Position numbers and translations under genes: made by a program
Part shown: one piece after another, positions 5,431 to 64,000 of the stretch
Position numbering within the stretch: the first letter of the stretch is position 1
Layout: every line of letters begins with the position of its first letter
The notes under the pieces: generated by a model
What the model saw: only the letters and a program-made list of their open reading frames with translations
Database searches by the model: none
What the model was told of the DNA's origin: nothing
NCBI GenBank assembly: GCA_002707025.1
Contig: PALG01000031.1
Coordinates: forward strand, 310,001-374,000
Length of the DNA: 64,000 nt
From: Flavobacteriaceae bacterium
GTDB lineage: Bacteria > Bacteroidota > Bacteroidia > Flavobacteriales > Flavobacteriaceae
Direction: 5' to 3'

Positions 5431-7128
5431 ATGAAGACCTTTATTCAAATCATCTTAATTCTTGTGACAACCACATATAGTATTGCCCAACAACAGGATT
5501 GGTCTGTTCATTTTGGTGGAGAGGATTACGAAGCTCCTATAAATATAAAGGAAGATGGACAAGGAAACGTCTATGTTCTAGGGTATTTTTTAGGAACTAC
5601 AGACTTTGATCCCGGACCAGAAGTTGTTGAGATTACAGCCAATGATGGTGCGGTTTATGTAGCCAAATATACCGAAGCAGGCAATTTTGTCTGGGTTAAA
5701 ACCATACATGCCACCGAAAATATTGAAAGTGACCATATGACTGTAGATCAAAACGGAAATCTTGTGCTCTCATTATTTTATAGAGGGGATATCGACTTAG
5801 ATCCCAACGCAGGGGAATTACTATTTACAAGCTCGGGAACAGATATGGCCATTGTAAAACTAACACCCAATGGAGAACTCCTCTGGGGGCAGTCCCTTGG
5901 GAGCGCTGAAGATGATTATGCAAACGAACTTATTACCACCCAAGATAATGGTATTATCCTTAGTGGGATTTTTCAAAGCAGTATGGATTTTGATTTTTCA
6001 AATGGAAATACCACCTTAACTCCACAAGGTGAATGGGACTCCTTTTTATTGAAACTTTCCCAGGAAGGTACTTTTGAATGGGTTAAACAGCTAGGGGGCA
6101 GCAATGGCTGGGTCTCTGCCTACAACCTTTCTGTATCTCAAGACAGATTACTTGTTACTGGCCATTTTCAAGGTATGGTAGATGTAGACCCTAGCAACGC
6201 TACTTTCCAGCTATCTAGTACTTTGCCCGACAGAAGAGCCGTTTTTAATGCTTCGTTTGATGATAATGGAAACTTTCTATGGGCCCATAAACTGGAAGCA
6301 GAAGACCCTACTTCTTTTGTAAGTATTACAAGTAATCATGCCAGTGCCAACGGTGAATTCTTTATTGGCGGGGGATTTAGCAGCACAGTGGATTTTGATC
6401 CAGGAATTGGGACCGATATCATCGAACCAATCTACCAGGACGCATTTATCCTAAAATTGGATCTACAAGGCAACTACCTTTGGGCAGCCACTTTTGGAGG
6501 GGCCGATGCATGGTTCAATCTAACCTCTAAAATTGTGACGGACGCTAACAATAATGTAATTGGCACTGGAAGGTTTTTGGCCACAACCGATTTTAACCCA
6601 GATCCTAACGCTACCAACCAACTCACGTCCAATGGAGAAAAAGATGCTTTTTTAGTGAAGCTGGATGAAAACGGAAGCTTTATTCATGCCAGTAGCATAG
6701 GCGGAAGCGGTAGGGATGTTGGTACGGCATTGAGTATTGATGCTTCAGATAACATTTACCTAACCAGTACTTTTAGGGAAACTGCCGATCTGCAATTTGG
6801 CCCTGAAGAAAATTGGGTCACCTCCCAAGGAGATGCCGACTGCTTTATGACAAAATTGAGCAGTACTTCGTTAGGCGTTTCCAGTAATGCATTGACAAAT
6901 ACCCTATTCAAAATATATCCCAATCCTGTGAAAACCATTCTAAATTTTCAAGGCATCGAAGAACCCATCCGTGCAATTTCAATCTATACCTCACTAGGAA
7001 ATCTTGTGTTACAAGAAAAGCCCCTTATTGGTAGTAACGTTGATGTTTCCTCATTATCTTCAGGAAGTTATATTATTCAAATACGTACTGAAAAAGGATT
7101 TTCAACAAGAAAATTCATAAAAAAATGA
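5431..7128 (+). CDS. T9SS-secreted beta-propeller protein with SBBP-type repeats
   Basis: The protein has 565 residues: a signal peptide (about 1-19, ending SIAQQ), then roughly six repeats built around phrases such as DFDPG, W(V/A)K-Q-GG and D-NGN-Y-TG-F, as in SBBP-type beta-propellers. It ends in a type A T9SS sorting domain from about residue 490 (IYPNPVKTILNF, then SSLSSGSYIIQI and RKFIKK). It should be exported by Sec, crossed through the outer membrane by T9SS and attached to or released from the surface. Ligand and role are unknown. Its stop lies 6 bases before an ECF sigma gene, so it probably belongs to that operon and could report on, or be controlled by, that sigma pathway. Confidence 0.85.
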   Translation: MKTFIQIILILVTTTYSIAQQQDWSVHFGGEDYEAPINIKEDGQGNVYVLGYFLGTTDFDPGPEVVEITANDGAVYVAKYTEAGNFVWVKTIHATENIESDHMTVDQNGNLVLSLFYRGDIDLDPNAGELLFTSSGTDMAIVKLTPNGELLWGQSLGSAEDDYANELITTQDNGIILSGIFQSSMDFDFSNGNTTLTPQGEWDSFLLKLSQEGTFEWVKQLGGSNGWVSAYNLSVSQDRLLVTGHFQGMVDVDPSNATFQLSSTLPDRRAVFNASFDDNGNFLWAHKLEAEDPTSFVSITSNHASANGEFFIGGGFSSTVDFDPGIGTDIIEPIYQDAFILKLDLQGNYLWAATFGGADAWFNLTSKIVTDANNNVIGTGRFLATTDFNPDPNATNQLTSNGEKDAFLVKLDENGSFIHASSIGGSGRDVGTALSIDASDNIYLTSTFRETADLQFGPEENWVTSQGDADCFMTKLSSTSLGVSSNALTNTLFKIYPNPVKTILNFQGIEEPIRAISIYTSLGNLVLQEKPLIGSNVDVSSLSSGSYIIQIRTEKGFSTRKFIKK

Positions 7129-58733: not shown

Positions 58734-59813
58734 TTAAGAAACAACTTTCTTTTGGTGATTAATGGATTCTTGGTGAATTGCCTTGTAAATACGAAGAATA
58801 AACTCTTCACTTAACTGATGCTCTTCTCCTTCCAAAATCATTTTGCCTAAAATTTCATTCCAGCGTTTGGATTGTAGGATGGCTACATTGTTGTCACGTT
58901 TCAGTTTACCAATAGCATCTGCGATACGCATACGCTTCCCTAAAATTTCCAGCAACTGATTATCTATCACATCTATCTTGGTTCGAAGGGTTGCAAGCTT
59001 GTTATTAAATTCTACGGCATCGCCTACAGCTTTACGAATCTTTAAATCGACCGTCATTTTATCTAAGGTTTCAGGAGTGATTTGTTGTTTCGCATCACTC
59101 CAAGCATTGTCAGGATCGAAATGGGTTTCGACCATTAACCCATCATAATTAAGATCCAATGCCGTTTGGCATAAATCAAAAATAATATCCCTTCTTCCCG
59201 CAATGTGAGACGGATCTAAAATAAGGGGTAAATCTGGGAAACGATTCTGCAAATCGATAGCAATCTGCCATTCGGGGTTGTTTCGGTATTTAGTCTTCTC
59301 ATAGGTAGAAAACCCTCTATGGATTACTCCCAGGTTGTGGATATCGGCACTGTAAAAACGCTCCACCGCACCTAACCATAATGCTAAATCGGGATTTACG
59401 GGGTTTTTAATAAGCACAGGTTTATCCGTGCCTTGAAGGGCATCTGCAATTTCCTGAACAATAAATGGAGACACCGTAGTCCGAGCCCCAATCCAAAGTA
59501 TATCAATATCGTGCTTTAAGGCCAAATCTACGTGATGGGCATTGGCTACTTCCGTTGTGGTAAGCATACCGGTTTCTTCTTTTGCCCTTTGCAGCCATTT
59601 TAATCCTAAAGCACCTACCCCTTCAAAATTTCCGGGTCGTGTTCGCGGTTTCCAGATTCCTGCCCGTAATACCGTGGCATCGGTATCTTTTAATTGATGG
59701 GCTATTTTTAATACTTGTTCTTCGGTTTCGGCACTACAGGGGCCTGCAATCACCAATGGGTGGGCAAGTTGCATGGCATCTAGCCAATTCCTTAATTCTT
59801 TCTTATTTTCCAT
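58734..59813 (-). CDS. Bifunctional DAHP synthase/chorismate mutase
   Basis: The protein has 359 residues. Residues about 1-255 are a type I-beta DAHP synthase (VIAGPCSAETEEQV, LRAGIWKPRTRPGNFEGVG, LDPSHIAGRRDII), the entry step of the shikimate pathway. Residues about 265-350 form an AroQ-type chorismate mutase (NNKLATLRTKIDVIDNQLLEILGKRMRIADAIGKLKRDNNVAILQSKRWNEIL). One polypeptide thus supplies both the first reaction and the branch reaction to prephenate. It overlaps pheA by 11 bases and lies under the phenylalanine attenuator. Confidence 0.95.
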   Translation of the reverse strand: MENKKELRNWLDAMQLAHPLVIAGPCSAETEEQVLKIAHQLKDTDATVLRAGIWKPRTRPGNFEGVGALGLKWLQRAKEETGMLTTTEVANAHHVDLALKHDIDILWIGARTTVSPFIVQEIADALQGTDKPVLIKNPVNPDLALWLGAVERFYSADIHNLGVIHRGFSTYEKTKYRNNPEWQIAIDLQNRFPDLPLILDPSHIAGRRDIIFDLCQTALDLNYDGLMVETHFDPDNAWSDAKQQITPETLDKMTVDLKIRKAVGDAVEFNNKLATLRTKIDVIDNQLLEILGKRMRIADAIGKLKRDNNVAILQSKRWNEILGKMILEGEEHQLSEEFILRIYKAIHQESINHQKKVVS

Positions 59814-60672
59814 GATTCAAAACCTGGCTTAAGTTACTAGGTTGGTTTTCCTTATTTTGCGCATAGGTTCCCAAAATTTTAAAGTTCTTAACATAGGGTT
59901 CCAAAGCAGCTACTGCTTGATAGAAATCTTCGCTTTCTGAAAAGGTCACGTCCACAAAAAAGGCGTATTTCCAAGGAGTTCCCAAAATAGGGAGTGATTG
60001 TATTTTGGTAAGATTGATATGATGGGAGGCCATCACTTCCAAAGCTTTACTTAAAGTACCTACTTCATGACCCAGCTGAAACTTGATAGAGGCCTTGTTA
60101 GGCGCTTTTTTACTCACGGCAGCCCCCCGATTTCCGAAGAGCACAAAACGGGTTTGATTTTCTTTGATATCCTGAATGTTGCTATCCAATATTTTTAACC
60201 CGAAGCGCTCTGCCACTTGTTTTCCAGCGATGGCAGCAACCCCCTGCAAGTTATTTTCCTTAATTCGCTTGGCTTCGCTTGCTGTATCCTTTCCTTCAAT
60301 GATTTTGAACTGTGGCGGAAACTTCCGAAGGTAATCCTTGCATTGCAGTAATGCTACTGGGTGCGAGTGTACCTCAAAAATATCGATAATCGATTCGGAT
60401 TCCAGTGCCATTAAATACATCTGTATATTTAAAAATACTTCATCAATGATTTCAAAATCGCCGGCTTCCACCAAATTGTAATTAGGAAGCAAAGAGCCCG
60501 TAAGGGTATTTTCAACGGCCATGACACCATAATCGGCTTTTCCTTTTTTAACGCTTTGGGTCACTCCATCAAAAGAGTCGCACATCACCAATTCCACAAC
60601 CAAATCTGGAAAGAGCTTTTGTACTGCTTCATCGTGGAAAGAACCTTCAATTCCTTGGATTGCTATTTTCAT
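59803..60672 (-). CDS. pheA: Prephenate dehydratase
   Basis: This enzyme turns prephenate into phenylpyruvate, the committed step to phenylalanine. It has 289 residues. The catalytic domain (1-180) has IQGIEGSFHDEAV, VMAVENTLTGSLLPNYNL and NQTRFVLFG with the conserved TRF. An ACT domain (about 195-275, SIKFQLGHEVGTLSKALEVMASHHINLTKIQSLPI) should bind Phe for feedback inhibition. No chorismate mutase is fused here; that activity sits in the next gene. It is preceded by a leader peptide and attenuator. Confidence 0.95.
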   Translation of the reverse strand: MKIAIQGIEGSFHDEAVQKLFPDLVVELVMCDSFDGVTQSVKKGKADYGVMAVENTLTGSLLPNYNLVEAGDFEIIDEVFLNIQMYLMALESESIIDIFEVHSHPVALLQCKDYLRKFPPQFKIIEGKDTASEAKRIKENNLQGVAAIAGKQVAERFGLKILDSNIQDIKENQTRFVLFGNRGAAVSKKAPNKASIKFQLGHEVGTLSKALEVMASHHINLTKIQSLPILGTPWKYAFFVDVTFSESEDFYQAVAALEPYVKNFKILGTYAQNKENQPSNLSQVLNHGK

Positions 60673-60701
60673 TTGCTTTATAATTTCAGTTTAAAACCCA
60701 T

Positions 60702-60732
60702 AAAAAAACCCGGAAGTTCGTTCCGGGTTTTT
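60702..60732 (-). terminator. Attenuator terminator before pheA
   Basis: On the minus strand AAAAACCCGGAA and TTCCGGGTTTTT form a 12-bp stem with a 5-base loop, followed by T residues, 30 bases before the pheA ATG and after the leader peptide stop. It can end transcription before pheA. Confidence 0.88.
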
Positions 60733-60751
60733 ATGATGCTATATATTTCAA

Positions 60752-60823
60752 TTACATGACAACCCGGTACTTTCCACCAAAGTAAAAAAACCAAAAGTTG
60801 AAATATGTAAAAAATGTGTTCAT
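60752..60823 (-). CDS. Phenylalanine-rich leader peptide of the pheA operon
   Basis: ATG at 60823 opens a 23-codon frame ending TAA at 60752. Phe occurs at positions 4, 5, 8, 10, 12, 13 and 15 (seven of the first 15 residues), Tyr at 7, 14 and 19, and Trp at 11. Segment CCGGGTT (60767-60761) inside the frame is perfectly complementary to AACCCGG (60729-60723), the 5' arm of the terminator, giving an antiterminator. A small hairpin TACTTT/AAAGTA (60784-60768) lies just before it. When charged tRNA-Phe is plentiful the ribosome reaches the stop codon, covers CCGGGTT and lets the terminator form; stalling leaves it free. Confidence 0.85.
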   Translation of the reverse strand: MNTFFTYFNFWFFYFGGKYRVVM

Positions 60824-60841
60824 TTGTTTGTATCGTTGTCG

Positions 60842-60872
60842 CTAAAGTACACATTACTTTATAACAACAAAA
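60842..60872 (-). promoter_or_regulatory. Promoter of the pheA operon
   Basis: On the minus strand: TTTTG (60872-60868), an 18-base spacer and TACTTTAG (60849-60842), one base off TAnnTTTG. It would start the transcript shortly before the leader peptide ATG. Confidence 0.5.
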
Positions 60873-60920: not shown

Positions 60921-61817
60921 ATGTCTATTGAAGTCCAAAATATTACTAAAACTTATGGTCCGCAAAAAGCGCTGGATGATGTAAGTTTTTCGATTCAGAA
61001 AGGGGAAATTGTAGGGTTCCTTGGCCCTAATGGCGCTGGAAAATCCACCATGATGAAAATCCTCACCACCTACCTTCCTGCTTCTGAAGGAGCTGCCTTT
61101 GTCAACAACCATAGTATTAAAAGTGAATCTTCAAAGGTTCAGAGAAGTATTGGATACCTCCCAGAGCACAATCCGTTGTATTTAGACATGTACGTAAAGG
61201 AGTATTTATCATTTAATGCCGAAGTATACGGAACCCCAAAGAGTAAAGTCTTGGATGTTATCGAGCAAACCGGATTATCACCTGAAGCCCATAAAAAAAT
61301 CCAACAGCTTTCGAAAGGCTATCGACAACGAGTAGGACTCGCCAATGCTTTATTGCACGATCCTGAAGTATTGATTCTAGACGAACCAACCACTGGGTTA
61401 GATCCCAATCAGTTGATTGAAATTCGAGAACTCATAAAAAGTGTAGGAAAAGAAAAAACGGTTTTACTCAGCACTCACATTATGCAGGAAGTTGAGGCCA
61501 TCTGCGACCGGGTCATTATCATCAACAAAGGAAAAATCGTGCTCGATAAATCGTTAAAGGAACTTTCCAAGGACAAACAGCAAATTATTGAAGTGGAATT
61601 TGGTTACCGTATTGAAGAAGTCGCGTTACAACAGATCGATTTTGTAAAGAAGGTAGAAAATACCATAGGATTTGTCTATCACCTACACTTTTCCACGCAA
61701 GAAGATATGCGTGCGAAGGTATTCGATTTTGCGCATGACAATGGTTTAAAGATTTTACAACTTCACCAAAAAAATACTTCTTTGGAGAAATTATTCATAG
61801 AACTTACTCAAAAATAA
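60921..61817 (+). CDS. gldA: Gliding motility-associated ABC transporter ATPase GldA
   Basis: The protein has 298 residues from ATG 60921; the open frame upstream begins with a TTG next to the promoter. It is an ABC ATPase: Walker A GPNGAGKSTMMKIL (about 35-48), Q loop (RSIGYLPEHNPLY), signature LSKGYRQRVGLANAL, Walker B VLILDEPTTGLDP, and switch His in LLSTHIMQEVEAICDR. The C-terminal 75 residues and the start MSIEVQNITKTYG match GldA of Flavobacterium, which works with GldF and GldG; those are not in this window. The 3' end overlaps the convergent GIN gene by 14 bases. Confidence 0.87.
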   Translation: MSIEVQNITKTYGPQKALDDVSFSIQKGEIVGFLGPNGAGKSTMMKILTTYLPASEGAAFVNNHSIKSESSKVQRSIGYLPEHNPLYLDMYVKEYLSFNAEVYGTPKSKVLDVIEQTGLSPEAHKKIQQLSKGYRQRVGLANALLHDPEVLILDEPTTGLDPNQLIEIRELIKSVGKEKTVLLSTHIMQEVEAICDRVIIINKGKIVLDKSLKELSKDKQQIIEVEFGYRIEEVALQQIDFVKKVENTIGFVYHLHFSTQEDMRAKVFDFAHDNGLKILQLHQKNTSLEKLFIELTQK

Positions 61818-62559
61818 GCTTTCCCGTAAAGAGCTCTTCCACATCTATGATGGGAGGTCTGTTTTTAGCAATGACATCCCCAGTACTAAAAATCCTTCCT
61901 TGAATTCTATTGATAGGGTTCACAATCATTTTATTGGTGCTCCGGTGAAAAATAAACAAATTGAAAACTTCCAATTCGGCAGCTTCTACACGTACATCGC
62001 CATCATACAATCCAAAATTTCCTGAAACTGCGTTTCCCTTCAGATAGAACTTTGAAATGCCATTGGCCTGAATCCCTAATTCCCCTACATCCAGATTGTC
62101 AAAACGAAAATCGCCGTCAATATGAAATTCGTCTTCTTGTTCCCTATCCTCAGAAATTAACACAAGGTTTTTAAATTCTATGGGCCCTACTCCAGTAACC
62201 GTTAAACCTGAACTATTCCTTATTTCCAAAGAATCCTTGTTAAAGGTAACGAACACCTTGGTTACGTCGTAATCCCGGGTATAGTTGCAACTATTTCGAT
62301 CGCTCACTTTGAGTATGCTATCCTCTACCCGCACCCTTACTTCGTTAATTAGGTTTTCGCCGGTTTCAATCACCACTTTTCTTTCATCCCCTTGGGAAAT
62401 AAATAATTGTACCCGGTTCCAAACAATAATTTTATTGAATCCGTCCAGCTCGTATTCCTGCTGAATGATATCCCCAGTAGTTTGAAAACAATCCCATGCA
62501 TTTTCAGAATTGCATCCAAAGAAAAGTGCGATAAGCGCTATGTATAAAAATTTCTTCAT
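61804..62559 (-). CDS. GIN-domain lipoprotein (head-GIN/DUF2807)
   Basis: The protein has 251 residues with a lipoprotein signal (MKKFLYIALIALFFGC, Cys16). The rest is a right-handed beta-helix-like GIN domain: FNKIIVWNRVQLFISQGDERKVVIETGENL, ..., ISKFYLKGNAVSGNFGLYDGDVRVEAAELEV, GDVIAKNRPPIIDVEELFTGKLIFE. Such proteins sit on the envelope; function is not established. It is clearly paralogous to the partial gene at the right edge, with the PagL-like gene between them. Confidence 0.85.
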   Translation of the reverse strand: MKKFLYIALIALFFGCNSENAWDCFQTTGDIIQQEYELDGFNKIIVWNRVQLFISQGDERKVVIETGENLINEVRVRVEDSILKVSDRNSCNYTRDYDVTKVFVTFNKDSLEIRNSSGLTVTGVGPIEFKNLVLISEDREQEDEFHIDGDFRFDNLDVGELGIQANGISKFYLKGNAVSGNFGLYDGDVRVEAAELEVFNLFIFHRSTNKMIVNPINRIQGRIFSTGDVIAKNRPPIIDVEELFTGKLIFE

Positions 62560-63696: not shown

Positions 63697-64000
63697 CTAA
63701 TCTTCAAATAATAGTTGTCCTGTATAGTATTCTTCTACTTCTACAATTGGAGGTCTATTTACAGAGATCACATCTCCTGTTCCTCTAATGCTACCACGTA
63801 AACTTTCTACAGGATTAATAATCATGATATTGGCACTTCGTTGAAATATACGAACTTCATTCACTCTTAGATTTTCAGCTTCCAATCGAGGTACCTCATC
63901 CTGAAAAACAAAAGAAGCTTTTTCAGAAAATCCGTCAATATAAAAACCACTAAAACCATTGGCATCAATTTGAAAATTTTCACATTGTATCGTCAAAGTG
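63697..64000 (-). CDS. GIN-domain protein (5' end missing)
   Basis: This is the C-terminal 100 residues or so of a second GIN-domain protein, with the frame open to the right edge. The ending GDVISVNRPPIVEVEEYYTGQLLFED is nearly the same as that of the 61804-62559 protein (GDVIAKNRPPIIDVEELFTGKLIFE). RIFQRSANIMIINPVESLRGSIRGTG also aligns. The signal sequence is outside the window. It is the gene upstream of the PagL-like deacylase. Confidence 0.8.
   Translation of the reverse strand, partial: TLTIQCENFQIDANGFSGFYIDGFSEKASFVFQDEVPRLEAENLRVNEVRIFQRSANIMIINPVESLRGSIRGTGDVISVNRPPIVEVEEYYTGQLLFED

Follow-up and report, generated by a model that had tools for sequence, protein, structure and literature searches.

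The window, which is the whole 64,000-nucleotide stretch of DNA that was analysed, contains the gene pheA, encoding prephenate dehydratase, and a downstream gene encoding a fused DAHP synthase/chorismate mutase whose start overlaps the end of pheA. The ACT domain of the pheA product (PF01842) scored 25.5 bits, just below the Pfam cut-off of 27. A full attenuator set composed of a promoter, a leader, an antiterminator and a terminator was identified on the minus strand (60871-60699), between pheA and a divergent gene encoding an ABC-transporter ATPase. The features of this locus, in window coordinates, are as follows.

60921-61814, plus strand: ABC-transporter ATPase gene, divergent, upstream of pheA
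60868..60871, minus strand: -33 promoter element TTTG, seen in the sequence, 18 nt before the -7 box
60842..60849, minus strand: -7 promoter element TACTTTAG, of the Bacteroidota sigma-A type TAnnTTTG
about 60837, minus strand: predicted transcription start, about 14 nt before the leader ATG
60752..60823, minus strand: leader peptide ORF MNTFFTYFNFWFFYFGGKYRVVM, 23 codons with 7 Phe, 3 Tyr and 1 Trp, stop codon TAA at 60754-60752
60779..60814, minus strand: control-codon cluster, codons 4-15, with 7 Phe, 2 Tyr and 1 Trp, seen in the sequence
60766..60792, minus strand: 5' hairpin, from folding, in which the last aromatic codons pair with a purine-rich stretch 3' of them
60761..60767, minus strand: segment 2, CCGGGTT, the 5' arm of the antiterminator, in codons 19-21 and ending 6 nt before the stop codon TAA
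60723..60729, minus strand: segment 3, AACCCGG, common to antiterminator and terminator
60707..60713, minus strand: segment 4, CCGGGTT, the 3' arm of the terminator, pairing with segment 3
60702..60708, minus strand: T tract of seven T, seen in the sequence
60699..60735, minus strand: predicted intrinsic terminator hairpin (segments 3 and 4) with the T tract, -17.2 kcal/mol, z -5.4
59803..60672, minus strand: pheA, prephenate dehydratase (PF00800, 173 bits)
58734..59813, minus strand: DAHP synthase (type I)-chorismate mutase fusion (PF00793, 134 bits; PF01817, 82 bits)

The sequence-only reading of this DNA had described a 23-codon leader with seven Phe, three Tyr and one Trp codon, a CCGGGTT segment that a ribosome at the stop codon could cover and an antiterminator of seven perfect base pairs. 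All of these were recovered in place on the minus strand, including the seven CCGGGUU/AACCCGG pairs. The terminator with its T tract does lie just before pheA, between the leader and the first structural gene, but its fold differs slightly from the supposed 12-bp stem; the prediction has an 8-bp core with an A-T extension, giving 15 pairs with one 2-nt bulge. The whole leader folds at -34 kcal/mol (z -3.0), a stability reached by none of 200 shuffles. A generic scan of the locus gave a single weak sigma-70 match, below the number in shuffles, and did not detect a terminator. The sigma-70 scan is uninformative; the promoter is of the Bacteroidota type.

The adjoining upstream gene is divergent, and the closest upstream gene on the same strand has its end at a distance of almost 1 kb. 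No other client is thus obvious for the terminator, and the possibility that it serves an upstream gene was rejected. A divergent ABC-transporter ATPase gene is also found upstream of pheA in Meridianimaribacter (locus L112, 4819-5709, minus strand), where the operon order is pheA, aminotransferase, tyrA and DAHP synthase/chorismate mutase. This suggests that the neighbourhood is old, although the pheA genes of the window and of Meridianimaribacter belong to different clades. A gene for a DUF2807 (head GIN domain) protein is present at 61804-62559 (minus strand) of the window, and a partial open reading frame at the window end (63697-63999, minus strand) encodes a C-terminus that is very similar to it by eye, which suggests that the DUF2807 gene is repeated there. 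The window also contains an S15-Flavobacteria ribosomal protein leader (RF03161) at 2555-2622 on the plus strand, with 69.4 bits, above the cut-off.

Conservation of the element was examined in a family sample of 199 genomes searched with the window pheA, 178 of which matched; the 500 bases upstream of pheA were scanned in the 110 best-ranked of these. The leader criterion was an aromatic open reading frame (five aromatics in 12 codons) with a terminator 10-90 nt past its stop. The strict criteria were at least seven aromatics in 12 codons and at least six antiterminator pairs with three G-C pairs. An aromatic leader, a terminator and a complementary segment were found upstream of pheA in 103 of the 110 genomes. 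Among the controls, leader plus terminator occurred in 2 of the 1,100 dinucleotide-shuffled sequences and in 2 of the 110 antisense strands. The strict criteria were passed by 98 of the 110 loci, compared with 0/1,100 dinucleotide shuffles and 0/110 antisense strands. The count of five aromatics in 12 codons, taken alone, was also passed by 436 of the 1,100 shuffled sequences and has little meaning unless the hairpins are present. On real DNA away from pheA, the strict test was passed by none of 1,700 tiles from 40 of 80 named loci, while 22 of the 40 pheA upstream regions of those same loci passed, and within the 64 kb window it matched the pheA leader locus alone (2 overlapping tiles of 490). 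Chance T-richness was rejected as an explanation on the strict counts in shuffles and other tiles.

Neither leader nor terminator was detected in two of the 110 family loci (L042 and L061). Five others (L022, L028, L054, L055 and L084) fail the terminator test; an aromatic leader is present in them, with a weaker hairpin by eye. The named relatives are the best 80 of 593 loci from one contig scan, titled Flavobacteriaceae, its genera (Flavobacterium, Winogradskyella, Psychroserpens, Bizionia, Tenacibaculum and others) or unclassified Bacteroidia/Flavobacteriales bins. The automatic test was passed by 54 of the 80 and the strict test, which misses Flavobacterium-type hairpins, by 48. Among the 26 failing loci, 25 contain an aromatic open reading frame with no terminator at the settings used, and 20 of these 25 are Flavobacterium; L122 is the sole case with no aromatic open reading frame. 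Leader lengths in the family range from 16 to 28 codons. The peptide outside the aromatic cluster varies among relatives, and the aromatic residues and nucleotide segments are mostly kept. In some genomes the leader stops right after the cluster, and segment 2 then lies past the stop codon.

The Bacteroidota sigma-A -7 consensus is TAnnTTTG, placed at -12 to -5 (PMC9723704). A -7 box of the form TAnnTTnG was found no more than 70 nt before the leader start at 99 of 103 loci, compared with 145 of 1,650 control windows. A profile of these 99 promoters has a T-rich block ending in G at the distance of the -33 element of the window. Because the Bacteroidota box lies so near upstream in nearly all relatives, transcription probably starts before the leader.

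The spacing of the elements is also conserved. In 97 of the 103 relatives, 8-12 nt separate the last aromatic codon from segment 2, which is about the reach of a ribosome past its A site. Measured from the end of the stop codon, segment 2 starts 12-21 nt upstream in 92 of 103; in seven it starts nearer to the stop codon or after it. A ribosome at the stop codon would therefore cover segment 2, and one stalled on the cluster would not.

Covariation was scored on a MAFFT alignment that took 56 loci from the 103 that passed (those numbered up to L016 and the even-numbered ones); L008, with four N at -301 to -257, was left out, needlessly since these N lie outside the leader. In this alignment segment 3 is one column off in the AACCCGG-type sequences and the CGAGA-type sequences have a gap at column 53; all 56 rows were kept and counted as aligned. 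Of 368 cells, 82.6% form the antiterminator pairing of segments 2 and 3, and 36 have two-sided changes; the terminator pairing of segments 3 and 4 is formed in 95.9% of 392 cells, 28 of which have two-sided changes. The covariation score of each pairing, inflated by kinship among the sequences, exceeds all 500 shuffles and all six slides. Separate measures of the antiterminator are weaker: two-sided change in 5/7 pairs was reached by 21 of 500 shuffles and two slides, and its number of further pair types by 12 of 500 shuffles, and in 30 of 56 sequences the outer pair (54-105) does not form. Segments 2, 3 and 4 switch jointly, e.g., CGGG/CCCG/CGGG and CGAG/CTCG/CGAG.

When the RNA from segment 2 to segment 3 was folded with segment 4 absent, the minimum free energy structure paired the two segments in 101 of 103 relatives, a lenient count because segment 2 was chosen by complementarity; the mean energy was -13.9 kcal/mol, and that of the window -12.2. 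Shuffling the 3' part of the 5' hairpin lowers its stability (mean z of the native hairpin -1.17, s.e. 0.11, 101 leaders). In a fold that contained just two bases of segment 2, this hairpin ended before segment 2 in 63 of 101 leaders. Once all of segment 2 is in the fold, the hairpin of the window also pairs segment 2 (1:2 hairpin), and at least three of the 5-7 matched segment 2 bases pair upstream in 81 of 101 minimum free energy folds, a count made without a shuffle control. The view that this hairpin ends ahead of segment 2, leaving an untranslated leader to be read through, was rejected on this fuller fold (81/101), which suggests a design nearer to the classical one. Without translation of the leader, segment 2 would probably be sequestered and transcription would end, as with the classical 1:2 hairpin.

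The sequence-only reading had named the element a phenylalanine attenuator and had suggested that it may also sense the other aromatic residues. The codon content calls for a broader name, with Tyr as a regular component, and agrees with the suggestion: Phe and Tyr both occur in 103 of 103 family leaders and one Trp in 72, mostly 8-14 codons before segment 2, with totals of 556 Phe, 360 Tyr and 72 Trp. From the codons of the leader, the attenuator is thus predicted to be aromatic rather than phenylalanine-specific. A composite sensor would make sense because DAHP synthase serves all three aromatic amino acids.

The window pheA shares 57-85% identity with its counterparts in 13 sampled genomes and no more than 50% with the others listed. 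No match to tyrA (PF02153) was found in the window genome, which is 99.9% complete, and none of the 14 genomes of this pheA clade exceeded the PF02153 cut-off of 26.5, two of them scoring 22-23 bits. All 16 other genomes searched exceed it. The aromatic amino acid hydroxylase (PF00351) was found in 12 of the 14 clade genomes and in 9 of the 16 others; one of the two clade genomes without it is 64% complete. Tyrosine in the tyrA-less clade may come from phenylalanine or from uptake. The Tyr share of Phe and Tyr codons is 0.285 in this clade vs 0.412, a difference whose small p-value ignores common descent.

Aromatic leaders before pheA were also found outside the family, a wider range than the Flavobacteriaceae comparison proposed in the sequence-only reading. 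In a class sample of 246 genomes, 73 matched the pheA profile, and 40 of the 73 upstream regions were taken, 39 of them from outside Flavobacteriaceae. A leader with a terminator is present in 29 of the 40 regions, including 28 of the 39, and 25 of the 40 also have a complementary segment of at least five pairs; 400 shuffles yielded two cases of leader plus terminator and none with the complementary segment. The 28 positives represent 16 of the 21 other families sampled. Both Phe and Tyr occur in all 29 class leaders (127 Phe and 112 Tyr), and Trp in eight. The 11 regions outside Flavobacteriaceae that were negative for leader plus terminator are all three of family f12, three of four of f15, one of three of f29 (L208, with an aromatic leader and no terminator at the settings used) and single genomes of f2, f20, f22 and f66. 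Two successive aromatic leaders precede pheA in L221 and L230 (f45) and in L212 (f57). A terminator follows each leader in L221 and L212, and the second alone in L230 at the settings used. These three loci are candidate tandem attenuators.

Similar leaders precede other operons of the window genome. The Bacteroid-trp motif (RF01692) scores above the cut-off before trpE (PF04715, PF00425) on contig C14 at 6748-6866 (L234), where the leader MKMNKQHTWWWNNLRAIVVS contains three Trp codons and is accompanied by a terminator-like hairpin. A His-rich leader, MRNTQLHHHHFHTGYQASGE, with a terminator is located before hisG, upstream of position 173986 of contig C26 (L235). From these sequences, leader peptides seem to serve at least three operons in the window genome.

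The preferred reading, with a probability of about 0.9, is that the pheA element acts as a ribosome-mediated transcription attenuator and senses the charging of tRNA-Phe and tRNA-Tyr, and possibly of tRNA-Trp. In this model RNA polymerase would begin transcription some 14 nt upstream of the leader ATG. When charged aromatic tRNAs are plentiful, the ribosome would reach the stop codon and cover segment 2 (CCGGGUU), segments 3 and 4 would pair, and transcription would terminate at the T tract before pheA, with an efficiency that is likewise a prediction. When they are scarce, the ribosome would stall on the aromatic codons and leave segment 2 exposed to pair with segment 3; the terminator would then be blocked, and pheA and the DAHP synthase/chorismate mutase gene would be transcribed. 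The pheA operon would in this way be controlled by starvation. If the leader is left untranslated, segment 2 would fold onto the preceding codons as the 1:2 hairpin, favouring termination. The model assumes close coupling of transcription and translation in Bacteroidota. In the window genome without tyrA, the Tyr codons would report tyrosine that is probably made by phenylalanine hydroxylation or taken up. The coupled design proposed by the sequence-only reading is supported by the retention of aromatic codons and complementary segments in 103 of 110 genomes, by the covariation of both pairings and by the promoter box in 99 of 103, and on these counts it withstands the refuting conditions set in that reading. 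The Trp-rich and His-rich leaders of the window genome also speak for it; the low Phe_leader score, the loci that lack part of the set and the weaker antiterminator measures speak against it. A more tentative proposal, held at somewhat less than even odds, is that of an old, Bacteroidia-wide composite sensor, in which one leader integrates the charging of Phe, Tyr and often Trp tRNAs for aromatic entry and branch genes, the codon mix tracks the pathway (less Tyr without tyrA) and some lineages stack two leaders before pheA.

A leader that senses Phe only, with its Tyr and Trp codons tolerated because the 5' hairpin requires a T-rich stretch that happens to produce them, is unlikely. Phe is the commonest residue in the 103 leaders, the hairpin built from aromatic codons is more stable than counterparts shuffled in the 3' part, and the window operon makes Phe in a genome in which no tyrA was found. 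Against this, Tyr is present in every family and class leader and is nearly as frequent as Phe in the class, and a Trp codon, which as TGG does not arise from a run of T, is nevertheless present once in 72 of 103 leaders. The lower Tyr share in the tyrA-less clade would be expected if the Tyr codons are meaningful, though it comes from one clade.

A trans-acting regulator or ligand (an RNA-binding protein, a riboswitch or a T-box) might act on a terminator that merely adjoins a small open reading frame, since the terminator is a strong structure and translation of the leader is a prediction. This is very improbable: no T-box or riboswitch was among the Rfam matches at the locus, which led to the rejection of these two candidates, and the aromatic cluster, the 8-12 nt gap and the position of segment 2 at the stop are kept while other peptide positions vary. 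Still less credible is a functional small peptide whose gene ends in an ordinary terminator. The peptide is hydrophobic and is found in most family genomes examined, but its conservation lies mostly in aromatic residues and nucleotide segments, its length varies from 16 to 28 codons, and some leaders end right after the cluster with segment 2 past the stop codon; the constant place before pheA and the alternative antiterminator would be left unexplained.

The sequence-only reading knew of no described case for the Phe operon in Bacteroidota, a point that needs correction. In 2021 the region 5' of pheA in Flavobacterium psychrophilum was reported to contain a structured element that is shared with further genera of Flavobacteriaceae and has no Rfam hit, together with clues for leader-peptide attenuation at amino-acid operons (PMC9723704). 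It is very probably the same element as that of the window; F. psychrophilum is not among the named loci. The account in section 19 of that paper does not include the leader sequence, the Phe/Tyr/Trp content, the alternative pairing or the range beyond the family. Small open reading frames in long 5' UTRs of B. thetaiotaomicron have been described as reminiscent of leader peptides (PMC7366714), and the term "pheA" is absent from PMC7366714 and PMC4833913. Besides PMC9723704, no account of a Phe/Tyr leader in Bacteroidota was found in the literature searched; a 2010 survey by Lopatovskaya may list cases. The Phe and Tyr (and Trp) composition, the covarying alternative pairings, the class-wide reach and the tandem form appear to be new in that literature.

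The surprise is limited, as the mechanism class is textbook and the pheA 5' element had already been flagged in 2021. The element provides a concrete, sequence-defined attenuator family in bacteria that do not rely on Shine-Dalgarno sequences, as stated for flavobacteria (PMC9723704), and makes the closeness of transcription-translation coupling in Bacteroidota testable. It is a candidate RNA family without an Rfam match at threshold, and a natural record of how the leader codon mix may shift where tyrA is missing.

No Rfam family matched the pheA leader locus at the gathering threshold, and a known Rfam family was therefore rejected. Of the 17 Rfam matches listed for 601 bases, that to the Phe_leader model (RF01859) has the best score and E-value (29.7 bits against a cut-off of 55, E 0.0066) and spans the whole model. 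This is the family of the E. coli pheA leader (pheL), which resembles the window element in its Phe-rich leader, alternative antiterminator and terminator and target gene family; a 1:2 hairpin, as in the classical design, is a candidate feature of the window element from folding. The E. coli leader peptide has Phe alone as control residue, whereas that of the window contains Phe and Tyr (and Trp), and its promoter is of the Bacteroidota type. In the thr and ilvGMEDA leaders of E. coli, one peptide carries control codons for more than one amino acid from linked pathways; the window element is similar in having multiple control amino acids and differs in the amino acids, the operons and the phylum. 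Bacteroid-trp (RF01692) is an older cis-regulatory motif of Bacteroidetes (PMC2864571). It uses Trp codons before the trp operon, in contrast to the aromatic codons of the pheA element, and its model does not match at the pheA locus, its one match in the window genome being that before trpE. The mechanism class is already known; the element, alike in anatomy, has an unusual set of control codons and a wide range in Bacteroidia, for which few published accounts were found.
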